Source: Nitratireductor indicus C115
GTDB taxonomy: Bacteria > Pseudomonadota > Alphaproteobacteria > Rhizobiales > Rhizobiaceae
Length of the DNA stretch: 64,000 nt
NCBI RefSeq assembly: GCF_000300515.1
Contig: NZ_AMSI01000004.1
Location: forward strand, 248,001 to 312,000
Direction: 5' to 3'
Part shown: piece by piece, positions 30,382 to 46,794 of the stretch
Position numbering within the stretch: position 1 is the stretch's first letter
How the letters are laid out: every line of letters begins with the position of its first letter
Notes under the pieces: generated by a model
Database searches by the model: none
Seen by the model: the letters and a program-made list of their open reading frames with translations, nothing else
What the model was told of the DNA's origin: nothing
Position numbers and translations under genes: made by a program

Positions 30382-30403
30382 CAGCATTTCTCTCTGTGTT
30401 CCC

Positions 30404-30419
30404 ATTTGTAGTTACAAAT
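30404..30419. promoter_or_regulatory. Perfect palindrome, likely HutC-type operator
   Basis: ATTTGTAGTTACAAAT is a 16-base inverted repeat with seven-base arms. Its GTA-N2-TAC core fits the known HutC-subfamily operators. It lies directly before the binding-protein gene and shares its left half with a site before the UTRA regulator gene at 22725. Confidence 0.6.
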
Positions 30420-30633: not shown

Positions 30634-31806
30634 CTAGATGGTGAGGAAGCCACGCGACAGGGTCGTGATCGGCTCGAAGCCGGTCTCCGTGACCAGCACC
30701 GTATCCTCGACCATCATCCCTCCCTCGCCTAGCCTGTAATAGGGCGTTTCGAGGCATAGGCACATCCCGGCCTTCAGCGTGGTGTCGTCACGGCCGTTTA
30801 TCAGTGGGGTGTCGTATGACCGCAGCCCGATACCGTGCCCGCAATGCTGTCGCTGGTAGGTCGGAATCCCGTTGGCACGTACCGTATCGACCCCAATCTC
30901 GAACAGGTCCCGCGCTTTCACGCCCTCCCGGAGATGATGAAGCATCGCTTCCAGCCCCCTGAGCAGGGCGGCATAGATTTCCTGCTGCCTTGGGTCCGGT
31001 TTGCCAAATACCAGCGTACGACCAATATCCGACCAGTACCCGTCGACGGTGCAGCCCGCATCGATCCGGATCGTTTCTCCCTGAGCGATCGCCCGCCCGG
31101 TGGGATAAGCATCGGCCAGCGCTGACCGGGGACCCGAGGTAACGGAAACAAAGCGGGGGACGCCGCCCCCCAGCACCATGCTCTCGGTCATCATCGCCGC
31201 GAGGTCCCGCTCCGTCATCCCTGCATGAGTCGTCCCCAGAATTTTCGCGAACCCGGCCTCCACACATTCCGCCGCGCGTCGCAGGCGGACAACCTCCCCC
31301 GGCAGCTTCACCGCCCGACATGATTCAAGCAGCAGCGACACATCGAGCAATCGGCTTTCTCCATAAACCTCAGCGCAGAGGCGCCACAGCAGATCGTCAT
31401 GCGAGCGGTCGACTCCGACCCGCCCCTCTCCCGGTTGAGCAGCGAGAGCCTCGACAAAAGCTGCGTCGAAACTCGCATGCGGCATCTGCGTCATAATGCT
31501 AGGGACACTGTCGTCGCGGTCGAAATAAAACTCGCCATATCTATGGATCAGTTCACCCCGACCCAGCGCCTCAAAGGCAGGTGCGGCGTCGGCTGCGCTG
31601 GTAACCAGCTCTGCGACATCACACCGGGCGAGAACAGCGGAACGATAAGTCGGTGCCAGGTCGTGAGCGATGCTGACATAGCCAGACAGGTAGGCCTTGT
31701 TCAGCGGATTGTCGGAGACGAGAAGCCGCACATCTGAAGGTAGCGCCGCATACACTTTGTCCCGCACCGCCTTCGCAAGCAATGCCATGCTCTTCAGTTC
31801 GCTCAT
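30634..31806 (-). CDS. M24-family metallohydrolase (Xaa-Pro dipeptidase/DoeA-like)
   Basis: About 390 residues. The five M24 metal ligands are in place: two Asp in RIDAGCTVDGYWSDIGRT, His in GHGIGL, Glu in LETPYY and Glu in VEDTVLVTE. An N-terminal creatinase-like domain precedes them. Size and pattern match both aminopeptidase P-like enzymes and DoeA/EutD, the ectoine hydrolase. Together with the aspartoacylase-like gene at 23556 it forms a DoeA/DoeB-like pair. ATG 31806 is preferred over TTG 31815. It has its own upstream region but the same direction as the transporter operon. Confidence 0.82.
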   Translation of the reverse strand: MSELKSMALLAKAVRDKVYAALPSDVRLLVSDNPLNKAYLSGYVSIAHDLAPTYRSAVLARCDVAELVTSAADAAPAFEALGRGELIHRYGEFYFDRDDSVPSIMTQMPHASFDAAFVEALAAQPGEGRVGVDRSHDDLLWRLCAEVYGESRLLDVSLLLESCRAVKLPGEVVRLRRAAECVEAGFAKILGTTHAGMTERDLAAMMTESMVLGGGVPRFVSVTSGPRSALADAYPTGRAIAQGETIRIDAGCTVDGYWSDIGRTLVFGKPDPRQQEIYAALLRGLEAMLHHLREGVKARDLFEIGVDTVRANGIPTYQRQHCGHGIGLRSYDTPLINGRDDTTLKAGMCLCLETPYYRLGEGGMMVEDTVLVTETGFEPITTLSRGFLTI

Positions 31807-31967
31807 TTTATCCAATCCGAATTGTCGCTGTTAAACCTCAAGGGTTCATCGCAGCGAAACAACGACAATTGAGCCCAATCACAAGGCTTATGACCGCTGC
31901 CTATTCGCATCCTCCGCCAATATGCCACCCTGTGACAAGTCGATTTACCCATCGATATTGCAAGGTT

Positions 31968-32222
31968 ATGGTTACGTACGGCGACGAGCACGATATTTGG
32001 AGTCTTGTTCGGCGCCGTTGCGATCAATATCCCGACTTATCGGCCGAATTGGCAACCACGAGCAAAGCAAGATGCCTGATCGTAGCGAACACTGATGAAA
32101 TAGCTCGCCGCATCCTACCGCATGGCATGTTGGAGTTCATCTATTGTGGTTCCGAGGAAGAGCCCGGTCTTGCTGGAGCGCGCAGTGAACTTGTGACAAA
32201 GTCCGCCCGCGGTTCTTATTAG
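31968..32222 (+). CDS. Hypothetical short protein, uncertain
   Basis: An 84-codon frame (MVTYGDEHDIWSLVRRRCDQ at the start) in the gap between two minus-strand genes. It overlaps the biotin carboxylase stop by four bases. No family recognised. AAGG lies four bases before the ATG. The surrounding sequence is more AT-rich than the genes. It may be a gene remnant or non-coding. Confidence 0.25.
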   Translation: MVTYGDEHDIWSLVRRRCDQYPDLSAELATTSKARCLIVANTDEIARRILPHGMLEFIYCGSEEEPGLAGARSELVTKSARGSY

Positions 32223-33613
32223 TGCGATTGGATGAATACAGATTTCTGGCGCTCGAGGGTTCGCGGCGAAAACCTTCCGATCAAATCTGTACTCAAATCC
32301 GCGTTCTGAAACTCGATTGAATCGAGCAGTTTTCCTAGGAAATCCAGATTTGTGGGAACGCCCTCCACCCGCACCTGCGCCAAGGCCCGAGCCATAAGTT
32401 TCAGGGCCGAGATCCGGTCGGCCCCTCGCACGATCAATTTGGCGATCATAGGGTCATAGAACGGGGTGATGCTGTCGCCGCTGCGCACAGCATGGTCTAC
32501 ACGAAGATCCTCCGACGGCTCGGGCCAGGTGATCCTCGTGACTGTGCCCGGGGCTGGCAGGAAATTCTTTTCTGGGCGTTCGGCATAAATGCGGACTTCA
32601 ATGGCGTGGCCGTCCGGAGCCGGATCGATCGTGGGCATCGCGAACGCGCCTTCGGTCTGCCGGAGCTGCCATTCGACGATATCGACCCCCGTGATCATCT
32701 CGGTTGCTGGGTGTTCGACCTGAATCCGGGTGTTCATCTCCAGGAAATGGAAAACCTGCTTTTCCACGTCGTAGATGAACTCCACCGTGCCAGCGCCTTC
32801 GTAATTCACCGATGCCGCGAGGTTCACCGCGGCCTTCTGCATGGCCGTGCGAACGGCGTCCGGAAGATCCGGTGCCGGAGCCTCCTCGACTACCTTCTGG
32901 TAGCGGCGCTGTACGGAACAGTCCCGCTCGAAAAGGTGTACTGCCGTGCCATCGCCAAAACCGAACACCTGCACCTCGACATGACGCGCCTTGGGGACAT
33001 AGCGTTCCAAGTAAACCGTACCTTCCCCAAAAGACCTCTCGGCCATGGACTGAGTCGCTGCGACGACGCCCTCAAGATCGTCGGGGCGCTTGACGAGGCG
33101 CATCCCGATGCCGCCACCGCCAGAGGCTGCCTTCACCAGCAACGGAAAACCTACGGTGGCGCCTGCTTCATGCAATCCATTCAGATTTCCGACGGGGAAG
33201 CGCTGGCTTCCGTGCAAGATCGGAACGCCCGCCTTGTTCGCGATGGCCCGCGCACGATCCTTGTCGCCCATACTTGAGATGACCTCGGGCGCGGGACCGA
33301 CCCAGAGCAGACCGGCATCCAGTACGGCTCTCGCGAACTCAGGGGACTCCGCAAGGAACCCATACCCGGGATGGATCGCCTGCGCGCCTGCTTTCAAGGC
33401 GGCTTCGATGATCCTGTCGGACCTGAGATAACTTTCGCGCGCAGGGGCGGGACCGAGGAGGGTCGCTTCATCAGCGGCCGCGACATGCGCGGCATCTGCA
33501 TCCACCTCCGAATAAACGGCGACGGTTGCAATTCCCAGTCTGCGGCAGGTCGCCATGACGCGGCAGGCTATTTCACCGCGATTGGCCACCAGGAGTTTTT
33601 CGATCCGAGGCAT
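32219..33613 (-). CDS. Biotin carboxylase subunit of an acyl-CoA carboxylase
   Basis: Carboxylates the biotin carrier using ATP and bicarbonate. 464 residues, AccC-like, without a fused biotin domain. Motifs: KLLVANRGEIACRV at the N-terminus, the ATP loop KAASGGGGIGMRLV, the metal/catalytic region FLEMNTRIQVEHPATEMITG and RIYAERPEKNF. It is the last gene of the minus-strand operon that also encodes a CoA-transferase, two carboxyltransferases, a biotin carrier and a TRAP transporter. Its separation from the carrier gene by three transport genes is unusual. Confidence 0.95.
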   Translation of the reverse strand: MPRIEKLLVANRGEIACRVMATCRRLGIATVAVYSEVDADAAHVAAADEATLLGPAPARESYLRSDRIIEAALKAGAQAIHPGYGFLAESPEFARAVLDAGLLWVGPAPEVISSMGDKDRARAIANKAGVPILHGSQRFPVGNLNGLHEAGATVGFPLLVKAASGGGGIGMRLVKRPDDLEGVVAATQSMAERSFGEGTVYLERYVPKARHVEVQVFGFGDGTAVHLFERDCSVQRRYQKVVEEAPAPDLPDAVRTAMQKAAVNLAASVNYEGAGTVEFIYDVEKQVFHFLEMNTRIQVEHPATEMITGVDIVEWQLRQTEGAFAMPTIDPAPDGHAIEVRIYAERPEKNFLPAPGTVTRITWPEPSEDLRVDHAVRSGDSITPFYDPMIAKLIVRGADRISALKLMARALAQVRVEGVPTNLDFLGKLLDSIEFQNADLSTDLIGRFSPRTLERQKSVFIQSH

Positions 33614-33634
33614 ATCGGTCCTTTCTTCAGGTCG

Positions 33635-34948
33635 TCAGCTTATGGTTCGGTTGAGCGCTGCCAGAAGCAGCGCCGAAGTCACGGCAAAGACGGGCGCAAC
33701 AAGCAGGTTTCTGCTGACGATCAGTTCGCCCCGGGGAACCGCGCTGACCGAGGCAGTCACCATCAAAAGCAGACCCGAGTAGGAGATCATTGCCGCGGAA
33801 CTCCAGCCCACCAGCGTGGCTCCGGCGAGCGCCAGGTCCGTAACGGCTCCATGCTTGTCCGCCAGCAGCGACATCAGAAGCGACGCAGAGACGATCGGAT
33901 GCACGCTCAGTATGCCGAGGGTCATCATGGACAGGGGAACCAAGGCCAGAAGCAAGGGGGCGGGAAGCGTGTCCAAACCCAGATTTGCAACCGCCATGTC
34001 GATGGTCACGCTATCGCGCAGGACTAGTCCGAACATGAACGCAAGCGCGACCACGGCAACCTCCGGCCCGATTACGAGGATGCGGTCAAGCGTTACGCGC
34101 CCCACGTCGCGGAGGTGGGAAAGGGCATTGCCGGCACCCCGGCCAGTCAGGATAAGGATCACGCAGAGTGGCGGCAGTGCGAGACAGCTTGCCTGCAACG
34201 TCGAGAAATCTCCGGCGTTGCGGAGCACCGTGACCGAGACTCCCGCCACGAGTATGATCGGGACAAATCCACCAAGTGCCCGAAACGCGCGCCCCGCGGT
34301 CGAGACCGGACCTGCCGCGTGCAAAGTCGCAAGCGCAATCGCCATCCCGACCCCCGACAGGACAAAGCCGACGGCCATCAGAGACCACAGCGGAAGATGC
34401 GGGAAAAACGCACTGACCACGGCAATCGATACGAAGAACGGCGACCAGTTTACGGCCAGCGCGGTTCCGGAGAGCGCCGCGACGGCATCCTCACGCCGTT
34501 GTCCCGCATTTTCGACCCCTGCGAAGAGGGGAGAGAGAATGGCAACCGCACCCACGGTCATCACGGTGCCAAGGACGCCTGATCCGACCGTCATCCAGAC
34601 AGGGCGTGCAGAACCTGACTGAAGGCTCAGGGCAGAGCGGTAGCGGTCGACACGAGGGTCTCGTTCGGAAACGCTTCGCAGCATCTGCGCCGAGGCAACA
34701 AAAGCCCCGAAGACGATCGTCTGAGCAAAGACGGTTGGAAAAGCCCAGAGATTGTCGTCCAAGATCAGCAAGAAAGCGGACGCGGCGACCATACCGACAC
34801 CAAAGAGCCGGTCGCTGTTTCGGGCGTTCAGGAGGCTGCCTGCCGCATAGATCGCGAAAACCGATGCAATCGCGAGGGAGAGCCACTCTGCATCCAGAAC
34901 GAAGGAAATCAGAGAAAGCGGCCACAGGAAAAGAATCAGGCGGCCCAT
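33635..34948 (-). CDS. Polytopic membrane protein of unknown family
   Basis: About 437 residues and mostly hydrophobic, with around 12 predicted helices. Landmarks are an N-terminal MGRLILFLWPLSLISFVLDA, a central ALSGTALAVNWSPFFVSIAV and a C-terminal GWSSAAMISYSGLLLMVTAS. The repeated Gly/Ser-rich re-entrant-looking segments resemble secondary transporters. I do not recognise the family. The start overlaps no other gene and lies six bases before the stop of the TRAP permease, so the two are tightly coupled. It could be an exporter, a second permease for the same substrate, or a coupling subunit. Confidence 0.7.
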   Translation of the reverse strand: MGRLILFLWPLSLISFVLDAEWLSLAIASVFAIYAAGSLLNARNSDRLFGVGMVAASAFLLILDDNLWAFPTVFAQTIVFGAFVASAQMLRSVSERDPRVDRYRSALSLQSGSARPVWMTVGSGVLGTVMTVGAVAILSPLFAGVENAGQRREDAVAALSGTALAVNWSPFFVSIAVVSAFFPHLPLWSLMAVGFVLSGVGMAIALATLHAAGPVSTAGRAFRALGGFVPIILVAGVSVTVLRNAGDFSTLQASCLALPPLCVILILTGRGAGNALSHLRDVGRVTLDRILVIGPEVAVVALAFMFGLVLRDSVTIDMAVANLGLDTLPAPLLLALVPLSMMTLGILSVHPIVSASLLMSLLADKHGAVTDLALAGATLVGWSSAAMISYSGLLLMVTASVSAVPRGELIVSRNLLVAPVFAVTSALLLAALNRTIS

Positions 34949-34953
34949 CGACT

Positions 34954-36903
34954 CTACCGGCGTTCGGCGACTGCCTGACCTGCCGCGCCGCTGGACACCG
35001 CCAGCCATTGCCTGACGACGACAGTCGCGAGCGCCAGAAGCGCGATCAGATCAGTCACAACGTGATTCGCGACAACCGAAACTCCGGCCAACGCCAGGAT
35101 CGCCGACACGTACCAGTGCACGGGCTGCCGGTAGAAGCGGCCGGTGGCGATGGCGAGTAGCATCGCAGCGACCAGGCCCATGACCGCAGAGGAGGCGATC
35201 TCGTACCATGTCCCTTTCAGCAATACCCCCTCACGGTAGATGAAGAAGAACGGTAGGAGGTACTTCATGGTCGCAAGCCGCATTGCATCGATGCAGATCG
35301 GCCACCAGTGTTCCCGCGCGATCACGGCGGCAGTGAACACTGCCGTGCAAACCGGAGGCGTTAAGGCGGAGAGCAGCGCTGAATAGAAAACGAAGAAATG
35401 CGCCGAGATCGGATCGATGCCGAGCCGGATCAGGGCTGGTGCGGCGACCGCCGCCGACAACAGGTACGCAGCAGTGGTAGGCATCCCCATGCCGAGTACC
35501 AATGCGACGATCATGGCGAAAACGACGGCAAGAAGCTGAAAGTTATTCTCGTTGATCATCATGATCGTCTCGGTGAGCTTCACGCCCACCCCCGTCAGCC
35601 CGATAAGAGACAGGGTGATCTGCGCGCAAACTAGAAGCGCAAGGATACTGACGATCCCGGAAGCAGCCGAGTTCACACCCTCAAGCAGGCTGCAGAAGCG
35701 ACTCTTGAACGAGGACCAGCTATATTCTCCGAGGAGAAGGAAAAGCGTGACATTCGTCACAATGCCGTAGAAGGCAGCCAGGCTTGGAGTGCGTCCCGTG
35801 AACATCGCCCCGAGCGTGACCACCAACGTCAGTGCCAACGGCAGGAAACGGCGCAGCGCGAAGACCTCCTTCCAATGCGGCATTTCTTCGACCGGGAAAG
35901 GCTTCATCCCCTCGCGCCGCGCCTCGATATCGATCGAAAACCAGACACAAGCGAAGAACAACACCGCGGGGATGATCGCTGCATAGGCGATCATCGTGTA
36001 GGGAACCCCCAGCAGCTCAGCCATGATGAAGGCTCCCGCACCCATTATGGGAGGTGTGATCTGCCCGCCGGACGAGGCTGTGGCCTCGACCGCTGCGGCA
36101 AAGCGGGGCCGGTAGCCAAGCCGCTTCATGGCCGGAATCGAGAAATTCCCGGTGGTCGCGACATTCGCCACCGCCGACCCATTCAGCATACCCATGAATG
36201 CGCTTGACGCCGTAGCGACCTTTGCGGCACCGCCTGGGCGCCGCCCTGCGACAAGCAGAGCGATGTCCATGAAACTCTGGGCTGCACCGGTGGAGAGGAG
36301 AACCGCGCCAAAAATGATGAAAATCGCGATCAATCCGGCGGACAAGCCGGTGACCTGCCCCCAGATTCCTTCGGTTCCGAGATAAAGATACTCTACAGTA
36401 TACTGCAGATCGAAGCCGGAATGCCCCCAGCGTCCAGCGATGTGATTTCCGAAAAGCGTGTAGAGAAGCGTCGCCACGGCGAGAAGGGGTAACGCCACCC
36501 CGGTGCTGGAATAGGCAACAAATGCAACGAGGATCATGAGAACGAGAGCGCATGCGATCTCGAATGGAGTTGCGAAAACCGCAAAGGATTCAACGAGACG
36601 CGTGTCCTGGGTGACGATGTAGAAACAGGTTCCTCCAACCACAACGGCAAGAACAAGCCGCACCATCGCACCGGTGCGCGTCGACAGGAAATCCGAGAAG
36701 GGACCGCCGAGCTTGTCGAGCGTCAGGTAAACCATGATCAGGGCAAGCCCGGTGTGACCCGAACGCTGAACCAGTGGCGGGAATGGACCAAAGCCAGCAG
36801 TGTATATCTGGAACGCGACCAGCAGCAATCCAACGACCATCGCAAGCTTCGACAGATCGAACGGCTTGCTCTCGCGCATCGTATCCAACTTGGAAGTGAC
36901 CAT
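34954..36903 (-). CDS. TRAP transporter fused permease (4TM/12TM, TAXI type)
   Basis: 649 residues with an N-terminal DctQ-like four-helix part fused to a DctM-like domain. Typical DctM blocks are GLIAIFIIFGAVLLSTGAAQ, GMLNGSAVANVATTGNFSIP and EATASSGGQITPPIMGAGAF. Fused permeases of this type work with TAXI binding proteins, and one is encoded 67 bases upstream. Substrates of the class include dicarboxylates and other organic acids. The neighbours suggest an acid that becomes a CoA thioester. Confidence 0.95.
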   Translation of the reverse strand: MVTSKLDTMRESKPFDLSKLAMVVGLLLVAFQIYTAGFGPFPPLVQRSGHTGLALIMVYLTLDKLGGPFSDFLSTRTGAMVRLVLAVVVGGTCFYIVTQDTRLVESFAVFATPFEIACALVLMILVAFVAYSSTGVALPLLAVATLLYTLFGNHIAGRWGHSGFDLQYTVEYLYLGTEGIWGQVTGLSAGLIAIFIIFGAVLLSTGAAQSFMDIALLVAGRRPGGAAKVATASSAFMGMLNGSAVANVATTGNFSIPAMKRLGYRPRFAAAVEATASSGGQITPPIMGAGAFIMAELLGVPYTMIAYAAIIPAVLFFACVWFSIDIEARREGMKPFPVEEMPHWKEVFALRRFLPLALTLVVTLGAMFTGRTPSLAAFYGIVTNVTLFLLLGEYSWSSFKSRFCSLLEGVNSAASGIVSILALLVCAQITLSLIGLTGVGVKLTETIMMINENNFQLLAVVFAMIVALVLGMGMPTTAAYLLSAAVAAPALIRLGIDPISAHFFVFYSALLSALTPPVCTAVFTAAVIAREHWWPICIDAMRLATMKYLLPFFFIYREGVLLKGTWYEIASSAVMGLVAAMLLAIATGRFYRQPVHWYVSAILALAGVSVVANHVVTDLIALLALATVVVRQWLAVSSGAAGQAVAERR

Positions 36904-36970
36904 TTCACGGACTTTCAGGATCGAGGGAGAGAGGGACGGCGCCCCGACCGCGCGAGGCGCCGCTGCGCCA

Positions 36971-37954
36971 TCATTCCATTTCGGGCGGAATCAGGTTCTC
37001 GGGCACCTCGACACCCCGCGACCGATAAAACTTCACCGCCCCGGCATGGAGAGGGATGTTCACCAGCGCCACGCTGTCAGCCACCGGATCGAGCTTGCCG
37101 AAGCTTGGGAACGCGGCGATCTGCACATCCGTGTGATCCATGATCAGGCTCAGCATCTCGAACACCTGCTCGTTGGTCATCGCCTCGGCCGTGGTGAATT
37201 CGCCGATGACCTGAACAGGTGCGGTGAAGCCGGGATAACCGCTGACTTCGCCAGCCTCGTAAGTCTCGAAGCTCACGAAGGGTAATTTTTCCTGGATCGA
37301 TGCGACCTCATCCCTGGTGAAGCTCAAAAGCCGAAGCGGTATCGACGCTGCAATCTCCATTGTGGTGCCGTCCAGCGTGCCGCGACCGCCCGCCTTGACG
37401 TAGCCAATGGTCCGGTTGTCCCGGACCGCATCCGTCGCATCCGACAGAGCGAGAAGCTGGTAATCCGGCTTGATGCCCAAGGTGTCGAGCATCTGCATGA
37501 CGAGCTGCTCGGTCGCGGAACCGCGTTGTCCAGGCGTAAATGGCCGCCCGGCGAGTTCAGAGAGCTTGGTGACGCCACTATCCTCGCGCACCACCCAGGC
37601 TTGCGTCGAAGGCGAATGCACCCAGAGGGCGCGAAGGTTTGGCATCGCGTTTCCTTCGAAATCGCCCAGCCCGGCATAGGCCTGATAGATCGTGGCGTAG
37701 GTGCCAAGACCGAAGTCGATCTGATCGCGCGCCAGACGTTGCAGATTCTCGACAGCACCGCCGGTTGCGACCACCGTGACATCGAGCGCATCGGTGTTGT
37801 CGTTTATCGCCTGGGCCGCCGACACGGCATAGGTGTAGTGAACAGAACTCAGTGCCGTGCTTCCGTAAGTCAGGCGCTCCTGCGCATAACTTGTCGATGC
37901 CGTCAGCAGCAAACCGACAACAGTTGCTGTCGCAGCTTTCCCAAATGCGTTCAT
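36971..37954 (-). CDS. TRAP transporter solute receptor, TAXI family
   Basis: About 327 residues with a signal peptide (MNAFGKAATATVVGLLLTAS, cleavage near SYAQE). TAXI features are RLTYGSTALSSVHYTYAVSAAQ, VVATGGAVENLQRLARDQID and GLGTYATIYQAYAG. Start ATG 37954 follows GGAGGAGAAGAC, an excellent ribosome-binding site. It binds the substrate for the fused permease downstream. Confidence 0.95.
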   Translation of the reverse strand: MNAFGKAATATVVGLLLTASTSYAQERLTYGSTALSSVHYTYAVSAAQAINDNTDALDVTVVATGGAVENLQRLARDQIDFGLGTYATIYQAYAGLGDFEGNAMPNLRALWVHSPSTQAWVVREDSGVTKLSELAGRPFTPGQRGSATEQLVMQMLDTLGIKPDYQLLALSDATDAVRDNRTIGYVKAGGRGTLDGTTMEIAASIPLRLLSFTRDEVASIQEKLPFVSFETYEAGEVSGYPGFTAPVQVIGEFTTAEAMTNEQVFEMLSLIMDHTDVQIAAFPSFGKLDPVADSVALVNIPLHAGAVKFYRSRGVEVPENLIPPEME

Positions 37955-38033
37955 GTCTTCTCCTCCCATGAAGTGTTAGTTGGACTGCAATCCCGGCAAA
38001 CCGACGACTCCACCTCCCTCCCCGGAGACTTCG

Positions 38034-39632
38034 TCAGGGTGTGAAATTGAATGTTCCTTTCGGTCCGAGGTCGTGCCCGAGACTAGTACCCGCCAATTCA
38101 ACCAGCCGGCAAAGGATCGGGCGAGTTTCCCTGGGATCGATGATCTCCTCGATTGCGAAGGCTTCCGCGCTCCTGAAGGGCGAGGCGAGTGGGCGCAACC
38201 GCGCCTCGATCTCCTGTTCTTTCGCACCAGGGTCTTCGGCAGCAGCAATTTCCCGCCGGAATGCGGCAGCCACACCGCCTTCGATCGGCAGGGAGCCCCA
38301 TTCGGCAGATGGCCAGGCCATCTTATAGTCGACACCATTCTTGTTGCAGGTCGCCATGCCCGCCATGCCGTAGCACTTCCGGATCACGAGAGTCGTCGTC
38401 GGCACCGTGAGCTGCGCGGCCGCGTGAACCACACGCATTCCTTCCAGCAACGTGGCATGTTCCTCCGCATGGCGGCCGACCATGAAACCTGGAACGTCCA
38501 CCAGGAAGATCAAAGGTATGCGGAAGGTATCGCAGAGCTGCATGAAACGAATCTGCTTCCGCGCCGCCTTGTGATCGATGGCACCGCCATAGAACATCGG
38601 ATTGTTCGCGACGATGCCTGTGGGACGTCCGCCAAACCGGGCAAGGATCGTATGCACCGCCTTTCCATGGGTGGGCTGGATCTCGAAACCCGAGTCTCGA
38701 TCGGCGATCATCCGAACCAGCCGACGCATGTCGAAGGCTTGCCGGCGGTTCTTCGGAACCAGGCTCGCCAATGCGTCCTCGCAACGATCGACAGGATCAT
38801 CGCAGCCCGTGACCGGGGGCAGTTCCCAGACGTTCTGTGGCATGAAGGACAGAAAGCGTCGTATCTGCTCGAAGGCCCCTTCCTCGCTGTCGGCTGCATT
38901 GTGGATGGTTCCAGCCATGTCAACTGCGACATGGGCACCGCCGAGTTCTTCCTTGTCGATGTCCTGCCCAAGTGAGCGTCTTACCACCGGGGGACCTGCC
39001 GCGAATATCTGGCTCTTGCCGCGAACCATGATGGAGAAATGCGACAGGATCGCGCGACCCGCGGGTCCGCCTGCCGCCGTACCGAGCACTGCGGAAACGA
39101 CCGGCGAGCGTCCAAGGAGGGACACCGAACGCTCGAACCCGTGTACGCCGGGAAGCACCGCATGGCGGCGCTTCTCGATCGATGCGACCGACCCGCCAGC
39201 ACCGTCGATGAGGTTGACCAGCGGCACGCGGTAATGAAAGGCGAAATCCTCGACCAGCCCCCCCTGCCCGCCCTTCCGGCGCGGCGCACTGAAGGTCGTA
39301 CCACCACGTACGGTAAAATCCTCACCACCGACGGCGATGGTACGCCCGTCTATCGCGACGGTTCCGCAGACGTAGGGCGCGGGTGTCACGCCGGTCAGGG
39401 TTTCGTTGTCGTCGTAGTGACCGGCTCCGGTCAACTGCGCCAGTTCGTGGAAACTGCCCATGTCGGCGAGGCGGTCGATGCGTTCCCTGACGGTCAATCG
39501 TCCTGCTGTGTGCTGACGATCGACCGCAGCCTCGCCACCCTGCTTCAATGCCTCTGACCGACGGAATTCCAGTTCCTCAAGGTCAGAGCGCTCCAGGCAA
39601 TGTCCTGCCGGATTTGTGTCCATGACACTCAT
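38034..39632 (-). CDS. Acyl-CoA carboxylase carboxyltransferase subunit 1
   Basis: 532 residues, PccB/MmdA type with N- and C-terminal crotonase-like halves. Blocks: [78 protein letters not shown] and [15 protein letters not shown]. It transfers carboxyl from carboxybiotin to an acyl-CoA, or removes it. The start overlaps the biotin carrier stop in an ATGA arrangement. The second carboxyltransferase at 39900 is clearly different in sequence, so the pair may form a hetero-oligomer or act on different acyl-CoAs. Confidence 0.93.
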
Positions 39633-39850
39633 GACCGGATAACGCAGAGGACCGCGTCCTCGTCGACGGCCGTGCCCTCGGCAATCGTCAAGCCCTCGAC
39701 CGTTCCGCTAGCGGCGGCGGTCACCGGGATTTCCATCTTCATCGACTCGAGGATCATCAGCACGTCGTCTTCAGAGACCTGCTGGCCTTCCTTGCACTCA
39801 AGCTTCCAAACGGAGCCTGTGACAGGAGAGGTTACATCGGTGGTTGCCAT
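39629..39850 (-). CDS. Biotin carboxyl carrier protein, short stand-alone form
   Basis: 73 residues with the biotinylation motif ESMKMEIP (the Lys is the biotin site), inside a single biotinyl-lipoyl domain from [11 protein letters not shown] to AVLCVI. There is no N-terminal extension, unlike AccB. It is comparable to the small carriers of transcarboxylase and methylmalonyl-CoA decarboxylase. It is translationally coupled to carboxyltransferase 1. Confidence 0.95.
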
Positions 39851-39899
39851 TGTCTTGGCCTTTCGTTCTCAAGTCTGGTTCTTCGGCGTATGCCACGGC

Positions 39900-41471
39900 T
39901 CAATATGTCGTCGGCCAGCAAGCCATCTGGTGTCGCCCGACCCCAGCGGTTGGCCGCATCGTATGAATCTCGAGCATTTCCAGCAGGTAGGTGCGGGTTT
40001 CGGTTGGCCGGATGACCGCCTGGACCGCGTTCATTTCCGCGAGGCCGAAGACTGTGGAATCCTGCTCCATTGCCGTCCGGATGCGGTTGCGTTCCTCGCC
40101 ACTGGCATCCCGCCCCCAGGTCACGACATCGACTGCGTAATTCGGGTCCATGAAACTGACCTCGGCGCTCGGCCATGCCGCGACCGCGTCGGAGTTCATC
40201 CCGCCTCCCATGTTCAGATAGGCCTGACCGTAACTCTTGCGCATGATGACCGAGAGCTTTGGCACGGTGCAGAGTTGGAGGGCCGACATGAAGTTCATGA
40301 TCTTACCCGGCGCCTTTCGCCGCTCGCCTTCGATGCCGATCACAAAGCCAGGGGTATCGACCAGCATCACGATCGGAATATTGAAGGAATCGCACATCAC
40401 CAGGAAGCGGGTGATCTTCTCGCAGGCATCGACGTCCAGCGCACCCGCCTTGAACATCGGGTTGTTGGCCACGAAACCCACGCTTTGACCACCGAGCCGC
40501 GCAAGCGCGGTGGTCGCGACCTTCCCGAGCCGTGGCTTCAGTTCGAAAACACTGCCGGGATCGGCGATCGCCTCGACGACCTTTCGCACGTCATATCCCT
40601 GGCGGCGCCCCTTCGGGACAAGCAGATTCATACGCGCCGCGGCCGCGCGGATATCGTCGCTGCCCTCGTCTGGCGCTTCCAATCGCGGCGGCGCCTCGTT
40701 GGCATGGGACGGCATATAGGACAGGAACCGCCTGATCTCCTCCAGCGCCTCTTCATCCGTGTCGACCACTCGGTCGATCAGACCCGTCCGGTCGCTGTGT
40801 AACTGCCATCCGCCGAGGTCTTCCGGCTCCACCGTCTGACCGATGGCGAGGGATGCAAGGCCGTGACTTGCGACCGCGAGAACCGCCCCTTTTCTCATGA
40901 CCGCAAAGTCAGACAGACACGTATACCAGGCAGACGACCCAAAGCATTGTCCCAAAACCGCCGCAGCCCAGGGTGTCTTGCGATCACGAATATATTGAGT
41001 GGGATCATTGCCGAGCATTGTTCCCATTCCCCGCGCGCCCATGTTGTCGGGCATCCGGGCGCCGGAGGATTCGCCGAGAAACACAATCGGCATCCCACGC
41101 TCCGTAGCTGCACGCTTGACATGGCCGATCTTGCGCATGTTGGTCATGCTCGAGGATGCACCCTTGACGGTGAAGTCGTTCGACACGACCGCCACCGGAC
41201 GCCCTCCAACGCGTGCGAAGCCAGTCACCTTGCCGTCCGCCGGAGTGGTCGAGCGATCCTCGGCGCGTGTCGAAACCCCAAGTTGGCCGATCTCGCGAAA
41301 ACTGCCTTTGTCGATAAGGTGCTCGATGCGCTCCCGCGCGTTCAGGATGCCTTTGTCCCGGCGTTTCGCAAGTTTCGCCTCGCCTCCCATGGAGAGTGCG
41401 GCCCTTTCGCGCCGGGTGAGTTCCTCCTCGATCGGATCCGTCTCCACGCCATGTAGAGCGATCTCGTTCAT
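39900..41471 (-). CDS. Acyl-CoA carboxylase carboxyltransferase subunit 2
   Basis: 523 residues, PccB/MmdA type. Blocks: GGEAKLAKRRDKGILNARER, GRPVAVVSNDFTVKGASSS, PIVFLGESSGARMPDNMGAR, GQSVGFVANNPMFKAGALD and MLVDTPGFVIGIEGERRKAP. The serine/glycine-rich binding segment differs from subunit 1 (ESSGARMPD against DGAGGSVAS), so the two are distinct paralogues rather than a recent duplication. The start overlaps the CoA-transferase stop by four bases. Confidence 0.93.
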   Translation of the reverse strand: MNEIALHGVETDPIEEELTRRERAALSMGGEAKLAKRRDKGILNARERIEHLIDKGSFREIGQLGVSTRAEDRSTTPADGKVTGFARVGGRPVAVVSNDFTVKGASSSMTNMRKIGHVKRAATERGMPIVFLGESSGARMPDNMGARGMGTMLGNDPTQYIRDRKTPWAAAVLGQCFGSSAWYTCLSDFAVMRKGAVLAVASHGLASLAIGQTVEPEDLGGWQLHSDRTGLIDRVVDTDEEALEEIRRFLSYMPSHANEAPPRLEAPDEGSDDIRAAAARMNLLVPKGRRQGYDVRKVVEAIADPGSVFELKPRLGKVATTALARLGGQSVGFVANNPMFKAGALDVDACEKITRFLVMCDSFNIPIVMLVDTPGFVIGIEGERRKAPGKIMNFMSALQLCTVPKLSVIMRKSYGQAYLNMGGGMNSDAVAAWPSAEVSFMDPNYAVDVVTWGRDASGEERNRIRTAMEQDSTVFGLAEMNAVQAVIRPTETRTYLLEMLEIHTMRPTAGVGRHQMACWPTTY

Positions 41472-42748
41472 TTGCTGCCTCCCGCATTTGCATGAGCAAG
41501 GACTTCGGTCGGCTCGACACCGGCGATCTCCTCACCTGTATAAAGAATTTCGTCATCGATCAGTCGAGCGATCTCGGTGAGCGAAAGGCCCAGGTCCTTT
41601 TCCAAAACCGACAACGTGTCCGCACCGATGGGTCTGCCGGGCCAATCGATGCGGCCGGGCGTTTCAGACAGCCGGGGCACAACATTCGGCATGGCGACAG
41701 GCCCGAGTTCATCATCCTCAGCCATCGCGATGGCGCCACGCGCCGCATAATGCGGATCTCCGAAAATGTCGCGCATGTCGAAGATGCGGGACACCGGCAC
41801 GTTGACGCCCTGCAACACGGCCTCGACCTCGGACACCGACAAACGCGACGTCCACTCACCAATCAGCTTGTCGAGATCGTCCTCATGTTCGGAACGTGCG
41901 ACTGGGTCGGAGAAGCGCGGATTCTCCATCAGTTCCGGCTGTCCCATCGCACCGGCCAGTCGACCGAACAGAGAGTTCGTGATCGCCGCGATGTGAACAT
42001 ATCTCCCATCGCCGGTGGGATAGAGCGAATTAGGTGTGTTGTCCGGCAGACGCGGGCCGGCCCTTCGTGCGACCACGCCGAGCTGCTGGAAGGCCGGCAC
42101 ATGCGGCTCCATGAAGCTGAACGCAGACTCGTACAACGCTGCATCGACAATTTGTCCGCGCCCGGTCATGTTTCGCGACAACAGGGCCATGGCCGCGCCG
42201 AATGCGCCGTATAGCCCGGTAATGTAATCCGTGAGCGACACCGCAACCCGAGCCGGCGGCCTGTCGGGATCTCCAGTGATCTCACGCATCCCGCTCACCG
42301 CCTCGCAGACCACGCCATATCCGGGGCGTGCCGAATAGGGTCCGGTCTGCCCATAACCGGAAATCCGAACCATGATGAGGCCGGGATTGGCCTTTGAGAG
42401 CGTCTCATAGCCCAGGCCCCAACGTTCAAGGGTGCCGGGTTTGAAATTCTCGACGACGATGTCCGCCTTCTCGCACATCGAAGCGACAAGCGCGCGCCCT
42501 TCCGGTCGCCGAAGATCGATCGAGACGTTGCGCTTGTTCCTGAAAATCGACGCCGCATAGAGTGATCGACTGCCATGGCGCTTGCCCATGGAGCGCACCG
42601 CGTCGCCGTCCTTCTGCTCGACCTTGATCACGTCGGCACCGAAATCCGCAAGCAACCGGCCGCAGAAGGGGCCGGCAACCGTAGAGCCTAGTTCGATAAC
42701 CTTGCAGCCCTGCAACGGGCGGTCGGATGCGATCGGCGCCTCGGTCAT
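41468..42748 (-). CDS. CaiB/BaiF-type family III CoA-transferase
   Basis: 426 residues. N-terminal LQGCKVIELGSTVAGPFCGR, then LADFGADVIKVEQKDGDAVR, RNKRNVSIDLRRPEGRAL, and the catalytic Asp region SLTDYITGLYGAFGAAMAL. It moves CoA from a donor thioester to a carboxylic acid, so it would activate the acid imported by the TRAP system. It is the first gene of the operon. I chose ATG 42748 (MTEAPIA). The frame extends to 42844 but the extra residues do not look like the family. Confidence 0.93.
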   Translation of the reverse strand: MTEAPIASDRPLQGCKVIELGSTVAGPFCGRLLADFGADVIKVEQKDGDAVRSMGKRHGSRSLYAASIFRNKRNVSIDLRRPEGRALVASMCEKADIVVENFKPGTLERWGLGYETLSKANPGLIMVRISGYGQTGPYSARPGYGVVCEAVSGMREITGDPDRPPARVAVSLTDYITGLYGAFGAAMALLSRNMTGRGQIVDAALYESAFSFMEPHVPAFQQLGVVARRAGPRLPDNTPNSLYPTGDGRYVHIAAITNSLFGRLAGAMGQPELMENPRFSDPVARSEHEDDLDKLIGEWTSRLSVSEVEAVLQGVNVPVSRIFDMRDIFGDPHYAARGAIAMAEDDELGPVAMPNVVPRLSETPGRIDWPGRPIGADTLSVLEKDLGLSLTEIARLIDDEILYTGEEIAGVEPTEVLAHANAGGSK

Positions 42749-42873
42749 TTCGGAATGCGCTCCCCTGTTTCCTCCCTGGCGCAGCCGAATATCGAAAGCG
42801 CCTTCGAGGCAAAACTTGACGAATGTCGTCACAACTGTCAACAATTTAAATTACAAAAATGTCGCCTTAAAAA
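42749..42873. promoter_or_regulatory. Divergent promoter region between carboxylase operon and bioMNY
   Basis: A 125-base region that must hold promoters for both operons. At 42837-42845 it carries GTCAACAAT, nearly repeated as GTCGACAAT (44853-44861) before the FCD-type GntR gene. The part nearest bioM is AT-rich. Confidence 0.5.
42837..42845. promoter_or_regulatory. Candidate GntR/FCD operator, site 1
   Basis: GTCAACAAT, reverse ATTGTTGAC, resembles the TTGT-N2-AC pattern of FadR-type operators. The same word with one change lies 42 bases before the GntR gene at 44903. The match is short, so chance is possible. Confidence 0.35.
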
Positions 42874-43668
42874 TTGAACGGAAATGGCGTGGTGATCGGA
42901 ATTCCTTCATTCGGCGCTGCAGACGTCCTGCACCCAGCGCGCAAGAGGCCCGCATTTCTGGACGTCGAAGATCTTGTCTACGAGGTCGATGGAAACCGTG
43001 TTCTCGACCGGATGAATATCCACTCATCGGCCGCGCGAATTGGACTGATCGGCCGCAACGGCTCCGGCAAAAGCACGCTTGCCCGGCTTCTCGGCGGTTT
43101 ACTGGAGCCATCCTCAGGACGGGTGACCATCGCGGGATTGAACCCATGGCACGACCGCAAGGGGGCTCTCGCCACCATCGGCATCCTGTTTCAGAATCCC
43201 GACCGCCAGATCATCTTCCCGATCGTCGAGGAAGAAATTGCCTTCGGCCTTCGCCAGCAAGGGCACAGCCGCGAGGAAGCAGAACGCCGGACAGGGGAAA
43301 TCCTCGCCATCTTCGGCAAGACGCACTGGAAGGATGCCCCCATCTCCTGCCTTTCGCAGGGACAAAAGCATCTGCTTTGCATGATGTCGGTTTTGGCCAT
43401 GCGTCCGAAACTGGTGATCGCCGATGAGCCTTTCGCCGGCCTCGATATCCCGACGCGTCGTCAGATCAAGCGCTATCTGGAGATGTCTGAATGCGGGATC
43501 ATCCTTGTGACCCACGATCTTCAAGACATTGCGGACTACGACGAAGTGTATTGGCTCGATCGGGGAAAGCTTCTGGCCCAAGGACACCCGGATGACGTGC
43601 TGCGTTGTTATTCCAAAGAAATGAACCGGCAGGGAGAATCTGATGATATCGCCATTCTCGCCGGTTGA
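42874..43668 (+). CDS. bioM: Biotin ECF transporter ATPase BioM
   Basis: 264 residues in this frame. Walker A is IGLIGRNGSGKST, Q-loop ILFQNPDRQIIFPIVEEEIA (typical of ECF/CbiO-type ATPases), signature LSQGQKHLLCMMSVLA and Walker B LVIADEPFAGLD. It begins at TTG 42874. A GTG or a later start is possible because the first 25 residues are unlike the family. Together with bioN and bioY it makes the biotin importer, which would serve the biotin-dependent carboxylase encoded divergently. Confidence 0.9.
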   Translation: MNGNGVVIGIPSFGAADVLHPARKRPAFLDVEDLVYEVDGNRVLDRMNIHSSAARIGLIGRNGSGKSTLARLLGGLLEPSSGRVTIAGLNPWHDRKGALATIGILFQNPDRQIIFPIVEEEIAFGLRQQGHSREEAERRTGEILAIFGKTHWKDAPISCLSQGQKHLLCMMSVLAMRPKLVIADEPFAGLDIPTRRQIKRYLEMSECGIILVTHDLQDIADYDEVYWLDRGKLLAQGHPDDVLRCYSKEMNRQGESDDIAILAG

Positions 43669-44245
43669 GTCCCGGGCCCACGAATGGCCTGCATTCTCCA
43701 AGCTTCTGGCACTCTGTGCCCTGTCCACTGGTCTGTTCTTCACCGACAACGTTACGGTGCTTTTCGCCGCATTCGCCTGTACCGCGCTCGTCTATGGGAT
43801 CGCAGGCCCGGCCTTTCTGCGCACAGCCCTGGTAACCCTTCGGACTCTTCTACCGGTCGTAGCTCTGGTTACAATCTGGCATGGAGCCACCGGAGATCCG
43901 CGGGGCGGCGCAGTCATCATCCTGCGAATGATCACGCTGGTCGTCTGGGCCAGCGCCTTTACGATGACCACGCGACTCGGCGAGATGGTCGAACTGGTTC
44001 GAAGCTGCGCAAAGCCTTTTGAGCGGATCGGCTTCCCTGTTGGAAGCCTCGGGCTGGCGATACCCCTGACGATCCGCTTCATACCCGTCTTCATCGCACG
44101 AACGAGATCCATGGACGAAGCCTGGCGCGCACGATCGGAAAGCCGCCGGAAATGGCGCCTCTTCCTGCCGCTTCTGCTGGCGGCGATGGACGATGCCGAC
44201 GACGTGGCCGAGGCAATCCGCGCCCGCGGCGGAACAAACCCCTGA
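43643..44245 (+). CDS. bioN: Biotin ECF transporter transmembrane subunit BioN
   Basis: 200 residues, EcfT family. Membrane helices flank the two coupling motifs with Ala-Arg-Ser and Ala-Arg-Gly (EAWRARSESRRKW and EAIRARGG), diagnostic of T components. It overlaps bioM by 26 bases, which suggests translational coupling. It joins the ATPase to the biotin-binding BioY. Confidence 0.92.
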   Translation: MISPFSPVESRAHEWPAFSKLLALCALSTGLFFTDNVTVLFAAFACTALVYGIAGPAFLRTALVTLRTLLPVVALVTIWHGATGDPRGGAVIILRMITLVVWASAFTMTTRLGEMVELVRSCAKPFERIGFPVGSLGLAIPLTIRFIPVFIARTRSMDEAWRARSESRRKWRLFLPLLLAAMDDADDVAEAIRARGGTNP

Positions 44246-44261
44246 GAGAGAAAGAACGAAC

Positions 44262-44831
44262 ATGGAACGAAACATCGCCCAGATTTCGCTGTTCGCCGCA
44301 CTGATCGCCGCGCTCGGCCTCATGCCACCGCTAATGATGGGATTCGGAGTTCCCATCTCCGCCCAGTCGATGGGCGTCATGATCGCAGGCACGATCCTCG
44401 GCGCCCGAAAAGGCGCCGCCGCAGCGGCCCTGCTTCTTCTTCTCGTCGCCATAGGTCTGCCGATGATGTCGGGCGGACGCGGTGGCCTAGGGGTTTTCGT
44501 TTCGCCAACCGGCGGCTTCGCGCTCGGATTTCCCTTCGCAGCCTGGGTAACGGGAAAGGTGGTCGAAACCTTGCCGCTCAAGCCGGTGGGTCTGGCGGCC
44601 GCGATAGGATCGGTCCTTGGCGGGGTCGTTACCCTCTATGCCTTCGGCATCGTCGGCATGTCGATAGTCCTCGACAAGACGCTGGCTGAGGCCCTTGCGC
44701 TCTCCATCGTGTTCCTGCCTGGAGATTTTGTGAAAGCTGGCGTGGTCGGGGTCATCGCCCAATCCCTCGCCCGTGTGTACCCGCAGGCCTTGCCTTGGTG
44801 CGATTCGAATACAAGGATATCCCGCCTTTGA
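44262..44831 (+). CDS. bioY: Biotin-binding S component BioY
   Basis: 189 residues, hydrophobic, with the BioY signature GVPISAQSMGVMIAGTILGA and the conserved segment SPTGGFALGFPFAAWVTG. ATG 44262 is preceded by GAGAGAAAGAA. The longer frame from 44193 overlaps bioN and is not used. Confidence 0.94.
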   Translation: MERNIAQISLFAALIAALGLMPPLMMGFGVPISAQSMGVMIAGTILGARKGAAAAALLLLLVAIGLPMMSGGRGGLGVFVSPTGGFALGFPFAAWVTGKVVETLPLKPVGLAAAIGSVLGGVVTLYAFGIVGMSIVLDKTLAEALALSIVFLPGDFVKAGVVGVIAQSLARVYPQALPWCDSNTRISRL

Positions 44832-44852
44832 CCGCCTCAACCCGTTGAGAAC

Positions 44853-44861
44853 GTCGACAAT
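44853..44861. promoter_or_regulatory. Candidate GntR/FCD operator, site 2
   Basis: GTCGACAAT on the same strand as site 1 (GTCAACAAT at 42837). It is placed just before the GntR gene, as expected for autoregulation. Weak evidence on its own. Confidence 0.35.
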
Positions 44862-44902
44862 GTTGGCTACAATACTGACTCATTAGCTAGAGGAAATTGG
44901 TC

Positions 44903-45568
44903 ATGTCGAGACAGGCGGAAGCCAGAACGATGTCTGTCGACGAGGTGGTCGATGCGCTGCGCCAGCAGATAGTCGACCATGACCTGCCGCCAGGCTCGAA
45001 GCTTCGCGAAACGGCTCTTGCGGAGTCGTTCGGGATTTCCCGCCCCAGGCTTCGAGAAGCCTTTGGCATACTTGAAGACCGCGGACTGATCGAACGCATC
45101 CGCAATCAAGGCGCGGTCGTCTCGCGTCTCACTGCCGACCAGGTAGAGGCCCTCTTCGACGTGCGCGAAGTGCTTGAAGCTCTTGCGGTGCGCCTTGCAA
45201 CCCAGAACGCTCCCAAGGATACGTGGGATGATCTAAGCTATCGGTTCGGCGAACCGGCGCGGGCGGCCTTGGCCCGGAACGATATCAACTACTACGTAGA
45301 AGCAATCAACGCCTTCAGGAGCCAAACTGTCCTGGAAGCCCGTAACGAGTTCCTCACGCAAAGTCTCGACAAGCTTTATGACCGGACGCGGGTGCTTGTG
45401 CGCCGCCTCGTGCTTGTACCGGGGCGCATTGCCGCCGCACTGGACGAACACGAACGGATTCTCGATGCCATGATGGCCGGCGAAGCTGAGCGCGCCGAGG
45501 AACTGAAACGCGCCAACATCCGAAGCGCGCGGCAATGGTTTTCCGACTACAAGAAGTTTCTTCTTTAG
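44903..45568 (+). CDS. GntR-family regulator, FadR/FCD subfamily
   Basis: 221 residues. The winged helix has VDEVVDALRQQIVDHDLPPG, SKLRETALAESFGISRPRLR and LEDRGLIERIRNQGAVV. The C-terminal FCD domain is all-helical, with DVREVLEALAVRLA and HERILDAMMAGEAERA. FCD regulators bind organic acids or acyl-CoAs. It is the likely controller of the carboxylase operon and the biotin importer. ATG 44903 follows GAGGA. Confidence 0.92.
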   Translation: MSRQAEARTMSVDEVVDALRQQIVDHDLPPGSKLRETALAESFGISRPRLREAFGILEDRGLIERIRNQGAVVSRLTADQVEALFDVREVLEALAVRLATQNAPKDTWDDLSYRFGEPARAALARNDINYYVEAINAFRSQTVLEARNEFLTQSLDKLYDRTRVLVRRLVLVPGRIAAALDEHERILDAMMAGEAERAEELKRANIRSARQWFSDYKKFLL

Positions 45569-45760: not shown

Positions 45761-46792
45761 TCAGAAGTCGAAATTGCCGATGTTTTCCTTGGTGAAGACG
45801 GTGCGCTCCGGTAGCAGAATGATGCCATTGCCTTCGGCTTCGTAGTCATAGCCCTGAACTTTGTTTGCCGAGACTTCCACGGTGCCGATCCCCGGAATCT
45901 CGAGCTTGTCGCCGACGTTCATCGGGCCGTTCTTCAGGACATGGTCGGCGACGTAGATCGAGATCTTGCCCTGCTGCGTGACGTCCCACAGGCCAAAGCG
46001 CTGGATCGTGCCGCGTTCTATATAGGGACGCATGACATTCGGCGTGGAGAAGCCGACGATGGTCACGCCCTCGGCCCGCTTCAGATTTTCGGCTGCCTGT
46101 GCAGCGGCCGGCAGGGCGTTAGCATCGGGCGCGATGATCGCGTCGAGGTCCGGGTAGGTCTGAAGGATACTTTCCGCCGTCTGCAAGGACTTCTGTGCAT
46201 CATTATAGCCGTACTGGGTGGTAACGATTTCCCAACCAGGGTGCTCCTTCGCAATCTTCGCCTTCGCGGCTTCGGCCCAAGCGTTCTGATCGGTCACGGT
46301 CGGGCTGGAATAGAAGAAGGCAACCTTGGCCTTTTCCTTCGTCACGCCTTCGGCCGCCATATCGACCAGAAGTCCGCCGAGCTGCTCGGGCGTACCCTGG
46401 TTGATGTAATAGCTGCGGCACTCGGGGTTGACGTCACTGTCCCAGGTCATGACGAGTACACCGCGCTCCATGGCCCGTTTCAAGGCAGGGCAAAGGCCGT
46501 CCGGCGAGACAGAGGAAACGACAAGAGCGTTGTAGCCCTGATTAACGAAGTTGTTGATGAACTGAACCTGGCCGGAAACGCTAGGCTCGGTTGGGCCATC
46601 ATAGGTGACCTTCGCACCCAGCTCTTCACCAGCCTTCGTCGCACCGGCACCACCGGACGTGAAGAAGCCGACACCCACGAGCTTGGGAATGAAAGCAATC
46701 TGGCTTTCGGCATGGGCCACACCAGAGGCGAGTATGGTGCCGGCTAAAAGCACCGCGCCCGCAAGGCCGGATTTCGTGATAGATTTGATCAT
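45761..46792 (-). CDS. lsrB: Autoinducer-2 binding protein LsrB
   Basis: Periplasmic AI-2 receptor of 343 residues with signal peptide (cleavage near AHAES). The six positions known to contact AI-2 in LsrB are all matched: Lys in [11 protein letters not shown], Asp in WDSDV, Asp-Gln in [10 protein letters not shown], and Pro and Ala in [10 protein letters not shown]. This supports AI-2 rather than ribose binding. Start ATG 46792 is preferred because AGGAGG lies at good spacing. Another ATG is two codons earlier. It is last in the lsrACDB operon. Confidence 0.93.
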
Positions 46793-46794
46793 TC

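Follow-up and report, generated by a model that had tools for sequence, protein, structure and literature searches.

The known transcarboxylase combines a 12S carboxyltransferase with a pyruvate-type 5S subunit (12S/5S/1.3S), and the mycobacterial protein AccA3 carries biotin carboxylase (BC) and biotin carrier in one chain. Two different full-length carboxyltransferases (CTs) have been reported to interact in the mycobacterial acyl-CoA carboxylase made of AccA3, AccD4, AccD5, and AccE (PMC4347857). A gene set with two full-length CTs in other company is found in a 64,000-nucleotide stretch of the Nitratireductor indicus C115 genome (contig NZ_AMSI01000004.1, positions 248,001 to 312,000), the whole of which is referred to below as the window. 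Here, a minus-strand operon encodes a CoA-transferase, two CTs termed CTA and CTB, a small biotin carrier, a TAXI-TRAP importer, a membrane protein, and a free-standing BC, and a divergent plus-strand arm encodes an ECF biotin importer and an FCD-GntR regulator. In our judgement the chances are about even that these genes form a regulated organic-acid assimilation module with an acyl-CoA carboxylase that is possibly a CTA-CTB hetero-oligomer. An earlier note on this DNA had listed the genes, its author knowing of no described pathway with this set; every gene it named is an open reading frame (ORF) at the coordinates it gave, and no such gene set was found in the open-licence literature, outside which most subscription papers lie.

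CTA (39900..41471) and CTB (38034..39632), both on the minus strand, match PF01039 across nearly their full length; bit scores and cut-offs for the window's proteins are those of Pfam (PF identifiers) and NCBIfam (TIGR identifiers) models. In trees with 14 and 4 references resembling propionyl-CoA carboxylase (PCC), called PCC-like by similarity and not by assay, CTA and CTB form two distant clades outside the PCC-like sequences, and neither falls inside the PCC beta clade; a single reference resembling 3-methylcrotonyl-CoA carboxylase (MCC) lies further out. The best NCBIfam model for both is mmdA (TIGR01117), whose cut-off of 998.8 bits exceeds the 317.8 and 330.7 bits reached. The two proteins also depart from PCC in motifs presumed, from PCC and 12S structures, to form the oxyanion holes. 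The N-domain hole reads A-G-G in the 14 PCC-like sequences and is kept by CTB (78 sequences, at least 90% per position; AAGGP in the window), whereas CTA (93 sequences) has G-S-S at at least 91%, followed two positions further by an invariant W (GSSAW in the window). The C-domain hole is Y/F-G-G-A-Y in PCC-like sequences, mostly Y-G-Q-A-Y in CTA, and mostly Y-G-M-A-G in CTB, the window proteins carrying YGQAY and YGMAG. That CTA and CTB differ from PCC at different places would be expected if labour were divided between them, and is suggestive of it. Besides these two, the host genome holds two long CT matches on other contigs, C5 (34% identity) and C16 (30%), which are taken as PCC-like and MCC-like, and short AccA/AccD-like matches on contigs C8 and C9.

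The free-standing BC (32219..33613, minus strand) contains N, ATP-grasp, and C domains (PF00289, PF02786, PF02785). Its nearest solved structures are MCC alpha chains, and in alignment to an MCC alpha chain its conserved ATP-grasp blocks are intact. The biotin carboxyl carrier (39629..39850, minus strand; PF00364) has 73 residues and the motif ESMKME. The CoA-transferase (41468..42748, minus strand), at 389.6 bits against a cut-off of 23.3 for PF02515, is by sequence a class III enzyme of the CaiB type; its ORF is open to TTG 42844, the likely start being ATG 42748. Its closest solved relatives are 4ed9 (CaiB/BaiF family) and 9br7 (succinate-hydroxymethylglutarate CoA-transferase). The best NCBIfam models are class III succinate-glutarate and succinyl-CoA:mesaconate transferases, whose scores of 239.9 and 225.3 bits lie far under the cut-offs of 750 and 700, and therefore no substrate is assigned from the models. 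By eye, the protein holds an aspartate in SLTDYITG that may be the equivalent of the class III catalytic aspartate.

The distribution of the module is patchy. Among 60 relatives of the window genome (4.99 Mb, 73 contigs), ten of them of the same genus, a CTA search found one close relative only, from the same order (68%). At E 1e-120, CTA is matched in 15 of 385 genomes of the class and in 2 of 398 of a phylum sample, the genome itself being counted in both; the second match in the phylum sample belongs to the window's own family (53%). Among the named carriers are Roseovarius, Halomonas, Sneathiella, Xanthobacter, Ottowia, Cupriavidus, and Variovorax. The comparison set comprises 86 loci, all chosen for CTA: the best 80 of 169 relatives from a contig scan, four plasmid loci, L007 from a relative's genome, and the window. 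L007 and L042 apparently stem from the same genome and count as one duplicate. Many loci are cut by contig ends; those extending 9 kb or more to each side of CTA are called wide (40 with codon-usage gene calls, 37 with six-frame hidden Markov model (HMM) searches). Core genes were counted by both methods since gene calls miss genes: the codon-usage calls lost CTB in L127 and L128, where tblastn recovered it, and the carrier of L064. Two gene families of a first clustering, c16 and c19, were rejected as shadow ORFs antisense to CTA, CTB, and the CoA-transferase, and codon-usage calling was used instead. By codon usage, CTB is found in 77 of the 86 loci, the carrier in 70, the CoA-transferase in 68, a GntR regulator in 69, BC in 51, and BioY in 11; the 40 wide loci have 37, 34, 33, 35, 31, and 9 in the same order. 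The six-frame searches give 75, 72, 66, 67, 52, and 11 for all loci and 34, 32, 30, 32, 29, and 8 for the 37 wide ones. A carboxylate-type transporter lies anywhere in the stretch in 31/40 (codon usage) or 26/37 (six-frame) wide loci. CTA and CTB occur one to one in 68 of the 86 loci (66 by six-frame search). L024, L090, L093, and L094 have no CoA-transferase in the stretch by six-frame search; a CoA-ligase gene is found there instead. Since the core recurs over many loci, the module is more than chance, and the proposal of the earlier note that carboxylate import, CoA transfer, and biotin-dependent chemistry belong together is borne out in the form of a recurring module.

Correlation of pairwise identities over single-copy loci was used to compare 15 pairs of module proteins. 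CTA and CTB give the highest value of all (rho 0.81, 65 loci), and the CoA-transferase follows both (0.75 with CTA over 58 loci, 0.71 with CTB over 53), as does the GntR regulator (0.74 with CTB, 0.70 with CTA). The corresponding values are 0.32 (45 loci) and 0.41 (41 loci) for BC with CTA and CTB, and 0.33 (64 loci) and 0.43 for the carrier. The low correlation of BC is not explained by protein length, since the CTs are only slightly longer. Read plainly, these values would place specificity with the regulator, the CoA-transferase, CTA, and CTB, and suggest that BC and carrier are swapped more freely. Divergence of CTA, CTB, and the CoA-transferase in step would suit a single joint carboxylase somewhat more than a pair of opposed half-reactions.

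A palindrome appears to tie the biotin importer to the carboxylase genes. In 39 loci with GntR preceding the CoA-transferase, a discovery set outside which the window lies, the dyad ATTGT-N2-ACAAT occurs upstream of GntR in 12; over 20 shuffles no dyad of this form exceeded 2. When one mismatch is allowed, it lies upstream of GntR in 21/39, between GntR and the CoA-transferase in 2/39, and upstream of CoA-transferase genes lacking a preceding GntR in 4/18. Over the upstream regions of all first genes, at the same tolerance, it is present in 45 of 83 loci (32 exact), and 19 other permutations of its arm, serving as control, reach at most 5 of 83. The window has a single copy within its 64 kb at this tolerance, ATTGTTGACAGT (42834..42845, minus strand; one mismatch), an operator-like site between the starts of the CoA-transferase and the ECF ATPase that separates the divergent arms; a shared site of this kind would speak against arms answering to different signals. 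Directly behind it lies the ECF arm on the plus strand, with an ATPase of the BioM type (42874..43668; TTG start, in-frame GTG 42889 as a possible alternative), a T component of the CbiQ/BioN type (43643..44245; PF02361), the biotin S component BioY (44262..44831; PF02632, 110.5 bits; ORF open from 44193), and the FCD-GntR transcription regulator (44903..45568), whose start is revised to the in-frame ATG 44903 as the likely one. Ahead of the regulator, two abutting degenerate copies with two mismatches each (44850..44873, plus strand) fall within a promoter-like site, TTGAGA-17-TACAAT (44845-44873); these tandem copies are weak and could be chance.

BioY lies directly behind the palindrome, or the site lies between BioY and the divergent module, in five of the 11 BioY loci (L027, L028, L048, L049, and L050); the palindrome is not directly ahead of BioY in L024, L044, L090, L092, and L094. 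The stretches from the carriers Roseovarius pacificus DSM 29589 and Halomonas korlensis yielded no BioY. BioY is present in 9 of the 40 wide loci of about 20 kb, compared with about 2 per 100 stretches by chance, our own estimate from one genome with four BioY genes per 5 Mb. On these grounds the biotin importer, which the earlier note had assigned to the module, can be kept as part of it, and the conserved palindrome would link biotin import to the carboxylase. The frequent presence of the FCD protein in the loci makes it the putative binder of the site. The window genome has bioB above its curated cut-off and four BioY genes, the window's importer being one of the four. Control of that importer by BioR was considered and rejected: the consensus box TTATMKATAA, with at most one mismatch, is absent from the biotin genes, and the only matches in the window, at 30489 and 41308, compare with a chance expectation of 0.94.

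The minus-strand operon runs from 42748 to 32219 in the order CoA-transferase, CTA, carrier, CTB, TAXI receptor, fused TRAP permease, membrane protein, and BC. A single transcript is plausible because the spacing between neighbours runs only from a 4-nt overlap to a 67-nt gap. Scans of the window found 11 terminators against 13.0 expected, hence no signal, and 8 promoter-like sites against 4.0 expected. The TAXI-family TRAP solute receptor (36971..37969, minus strand) and the fused TRAP permease (34954..36903, minus strand) both exceed their NCBIfam cut-offs, with 148.2 bits for TIGR02122 (cut-off 84.35) and 502.8 bits for TIGR02123 (cut-off 320.65). A search for TRAP-TAXI found nothing in the open-licence literature, outside which most subscription papers lie. 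Importer types vary among the loci: by codon usage, TAXI is found in 19, TctC in 26, an NMT1-type protein in 16, and DctM in 11 of the 86 stretches, and in 11, 13, 7, and 9 of the 40 wide loci, TctC being counted anywhere in the stretch, where it may be unrelated to the module. The membrane protein (33635..34948, minus strand), whose probable start at 34948 leaves no overlap with the permease, matches no Pfam family up to E 1 and no NCBIfam family, and thus no membrane beta subunit of the OadB/MmdB/GcdB type among these models; a PDB sequence search returned three matches, all apparently irrelevant. An AlphaFold model built on an alignment of 12 homologues (pLDDT 90.3, pTM 0.90) aligns for most of its length with ArsB, VcINDY/DASS, and TRAP M subunits in Foldseek and VIA, the absence of other families from these matches being no evidence against them. 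The model makes a secondary anion or carboxylate transporter of the IT superfamily fold probable. The gene is found in 12 of the 86 loci by codon usage and in 10 by six-frame search; in L031 it lies inside the module, with no TAXI-TRAP in the stretch.

Adjoining the regulator in the window, 45761-53082 encodes a sugar-type ABC transporter (a periplasmic-binding protein, two permeases, and an ATPase with two matched stretches), divergent from genes for an FGGY kinase and a regulator with a sugar-binding domain; this is a common type of uptake cluster for a sugar or polyol. Downstream of BC on the same strand, 28832-31815 contains ABC transporter genes (a permease and a type-3 solute-binding protein) and an M24 metallopeptidase.

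A scheme that uses all parts, and in our view the best one, combines import, CoA transfer, and carboxylation under FCD control. The TAXI-TRAP system, helped or replaced by the IT-fold permease, would import a carboxylic acid, perhaps a dicarboxylate, which the class III CoA-transferase would turn into its CoA ester. The free BC, the 73-residue carrier, and a CT built jointly from CTA and CTB would then add CO2 at the expense of ATP, giving a carboxylated product usable by housekeeping enzymes. The FCD regulator would act at ATTGT-N2-ACAAT sites and govern the carboxylase operon together with the ECF biotin importer divergent from it, matching cofactor supply to enzyme demand. We infer the binding of the palindrome by the FCD protein, the CTA-CTB complex, the direction of carboxylation, and the acid; the direction is proposed because the BC blocks are intact and BC is frequent among the loci. 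A dicarboxylate is weakly favoured by the nearest models of the CoA-transferase, by the importer types, and by SucCD-like ligase genes in L090, L093, and L094. Genes for MaoC (7), enoyl-CoA hydratase (18), and ADP-forming CoA ligase (11) are found in the 86 loci by codon usage. A two-gene aconitase X cluster, assigned by a Pfam run on the L042 copy only (14753-16437), immediately follows the module BC in two of the loci L041, L042, and L104 and adjoins a TctC gene in the remaining one, and a CitE/RipC-like lyase near L024 scores under both of its cut-offs. These neighbours hint at dicarboxylate-CoA chemistry, each being a minority that may belong to adjoining pathways.

Several observations weigh against a joint CTA-CTB carboxylase. 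The BC or carrier genes in each locus may not all be orthologues, and the BC and carrier rows are the only control for shared descent in the identity correlation. Six-frame searches find one CTA and no CTB in 10 of the 86 loci, and two CTAs without CTB in one more; contig ends may account for some of these 11, but not for L024, L085, and L087, which have 9 kb on both sides. BC is out of reach in 8 of the 37 wide loci by the same method, and the palindrome, even with one mismatch allowed, is missing from 38 of 83 loci, the window being counted among them since the gene caller put the CoA-transferase start too far upstream. Both CTs differ from PCC near both oxyanion holes, so that catalysis is not to be assumed for either. 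The L022 stretch, on a Variovorax plasmid, carries the CoA-transferase/CTA/CTB set twice and BC and carrier once each; because the plasmid also has another full BC match about 80 kb off, and a partial one, this locus does not prove that a single BC serves both sets. A tblastn search with CTB detects no other CT in the stretches of 12 out of 15 additional, more distant CTA loci (L129-L140, CTA 47-53% identical), and CTA-type proteins may therefore work alone; L129-L139 have no BC or CoA-transferase above 60 bits in the stretch. Along with L022, these loci make the joint reading slightly less likely in our view.

The solo loci also speak for the strongest alternative, in which CTA and CTB act independently and without forming a complex, sharing one BC and one carrier while each takes a different acyl-CoA, such as the transferase product for one and an intermediate further down the pathway for the other. 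The distance between the two clades is in keeping with it, as are the uneven copy ratios, with two CTAs and one CTB in five loci and one CTA and two CTB-type proteins in L090, L093, and L094. Against it stand the top rank of CTA-CTB among the 15 correlated pairs, the fact that both track the CoA-transferase, and the window operon, in which no further enzyme is encoded between two such steps. We regard independent CTs as a credible but doubtful explanation.

Transcarboxylation, in which one CT would take the carboxyl group from a malonyl-type CoA ester and the other pass it to a second acyl-CoA, BC merely priming the carrier, is improbable. Two CTs and one small carrier in a single operon would suit such a system, and opposed half-reactions are possible in principle for two full-length CTs. 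However, BC is found in 31/40 or 29/37 wide loci depending on the method, and the pyruvate-type 5S subunit, the partner of 12S in the known transcarboxylase, is not among the operon genes. As a preference, the transfer between two acyl-CoAs suggested in the earlier note finds no support in the intact ATP-grasp blocks of BC and the divergence in step of CTA, CTB, and CoA-transferase. Still harder to defend is a role in decarboxylation, on the lines of methylmalonyl-CoA or glutaconyl-CoA decarboxylase, in which the membrane protein would be the subunit that pumps sodium. The company of a CoA-transferase, a CT, a carrier, and a membrane protein resembles that of malonate and glutaconate decarboxylase operons, and mmdA is the top model for both CTs; yet the mmdA scores reach about a third of the cut-off, the membrane protein, which has no Pfam family and folds as ArsB/DASS/TRAP-M, is confined to 12 of the 86 loci, and a free BC is unnecessary for decarboxylation. 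A redundant isozyme of PCC, MCC, or acetyl-CoA carboxylase is very hard to credit: all parts do come from the acyl-CoA carboxylase superfamily, but neither CT groups with the PCC-like clade or with the single MCC-like reference, the host has the further CT matches on C5 and C16 and the short ones on C8 and C9, and a dedicated importer, CoA-transferase, and regulator are hard to account for.

Should the module be what the regulated carboxylase reading makes of it, it would represent a dispersed, substrate-inducible class of carboxylases in Proteobacteria with two co-diverging CTs, apart from PCC-like enzymes, in which one DNA site appears to control cofactor supply and catabolic genes alike. 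It would then be a tractable model for the division of substrate and biotin sites in two-CT carboxylases, a natural source of new acyl-CoA carboxylases for the design of CO2-fixing pathways, and a route to finding what the accompanying orphan importers of the TAXI, TctC, and DctM types bind. A bolder version, which we put forward tentatively and consider rather unlikely, is that CTA and CTB form an obligate hetero-oligomer serving to assimilate a (di)carboxylic acid from the environment by a CO2-fixing route not yet described; the enzyme would carboxylate a CoA ester unused by known acyl-CoA carboxylases straight to a central metabolite, with biotin import in the same substrate-sensing FCD regulon. 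The gamma-carboxylation of a mesaconyl- or itaconyl-type CoA to aconityl-CoA would be a chemically consistent example.

Some observations concern relatives of the module genes elsewhere. In L136, L138, and L139, from one genus, the solo CTA relative adjoins a row of genes, in L139 glcD, glcE, glcF (glycolate oxidase), and in L137 an ammonium transporter fused to a histidine kinase (13257-15401) is encoded near a solo CTA relative. L140, from a genome of the window's family, combines a CTA relative with genes for hydantoinase A/B, BC, carrier, CoA-ligase, and class III aminotransferase (3697-14550). A conserved protein of about 225 residues without Pfam match (cluster c13) occurs in L104 (7396-8076) and six other loci, in a betaproteobacterial variant of the module. 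BLAST with CTB alone matches 74 of 385 genomes at E 1e-100, a figure that is not a module prevalence: the copies inspected belong mostly to other CT clades and are frequently tandem CT pairs. Two such pairs (L154 8098-11786, L155 7791-11469) flank a 163-residue gene, YbjN-like in L154, with a TAXI-TRAP importer near each; the module's carrier and BC models have no match in either stretch, and these tandem CTs are possibly another two-CT system.

Among described systems, glutaconyl-CoA and methylmalonyl-CoA decarboxylases share with the module the logic of a CT, a small carrier, and a CoA-transferase; unlike them, the window has a free BC and no sodium-pump subunit recognised by Pfam. The class III succinate-glutarate and succinyl-CoA:mesaconate CoA-transferases are the nearest models of the CoA-transferase, yet far from a match at their cut-offs. 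All three components of a BioMNY ECF biotin transporter, A, T, and S, are encoded together; here they stand behind the palindrome of a carboxylase module and without a BioR box there. With the MCC/3-methylglutaconyl-CoA hydratase route the module shares the affinity of its BC to MCC alpha among solved structures; an enoyl-CoA hydratase gene accompanies it in a minority of loci and is absent from the window operon, and the CTs stand apart from the MCC-like reference. Both CTs align over nearly their whole length with the fold of PCC beta and methylmalonyl transcarboxylase 12S (1vrg, 1on3, 3ib9, 7w5u), from which their clades and the motifs at both oxyanion holes set them apart. The likeness to AccD4-AccD5 consists in two different full-length CTs, whose possible union in one complex is suggested here by correlated divergence; whereas AccA3, AccD4, and AccD5 are joined by an epsilon subunit, AccE, the module studied here adds an importer and a CoA-transferase and encodes BC and carrier as separate genes.

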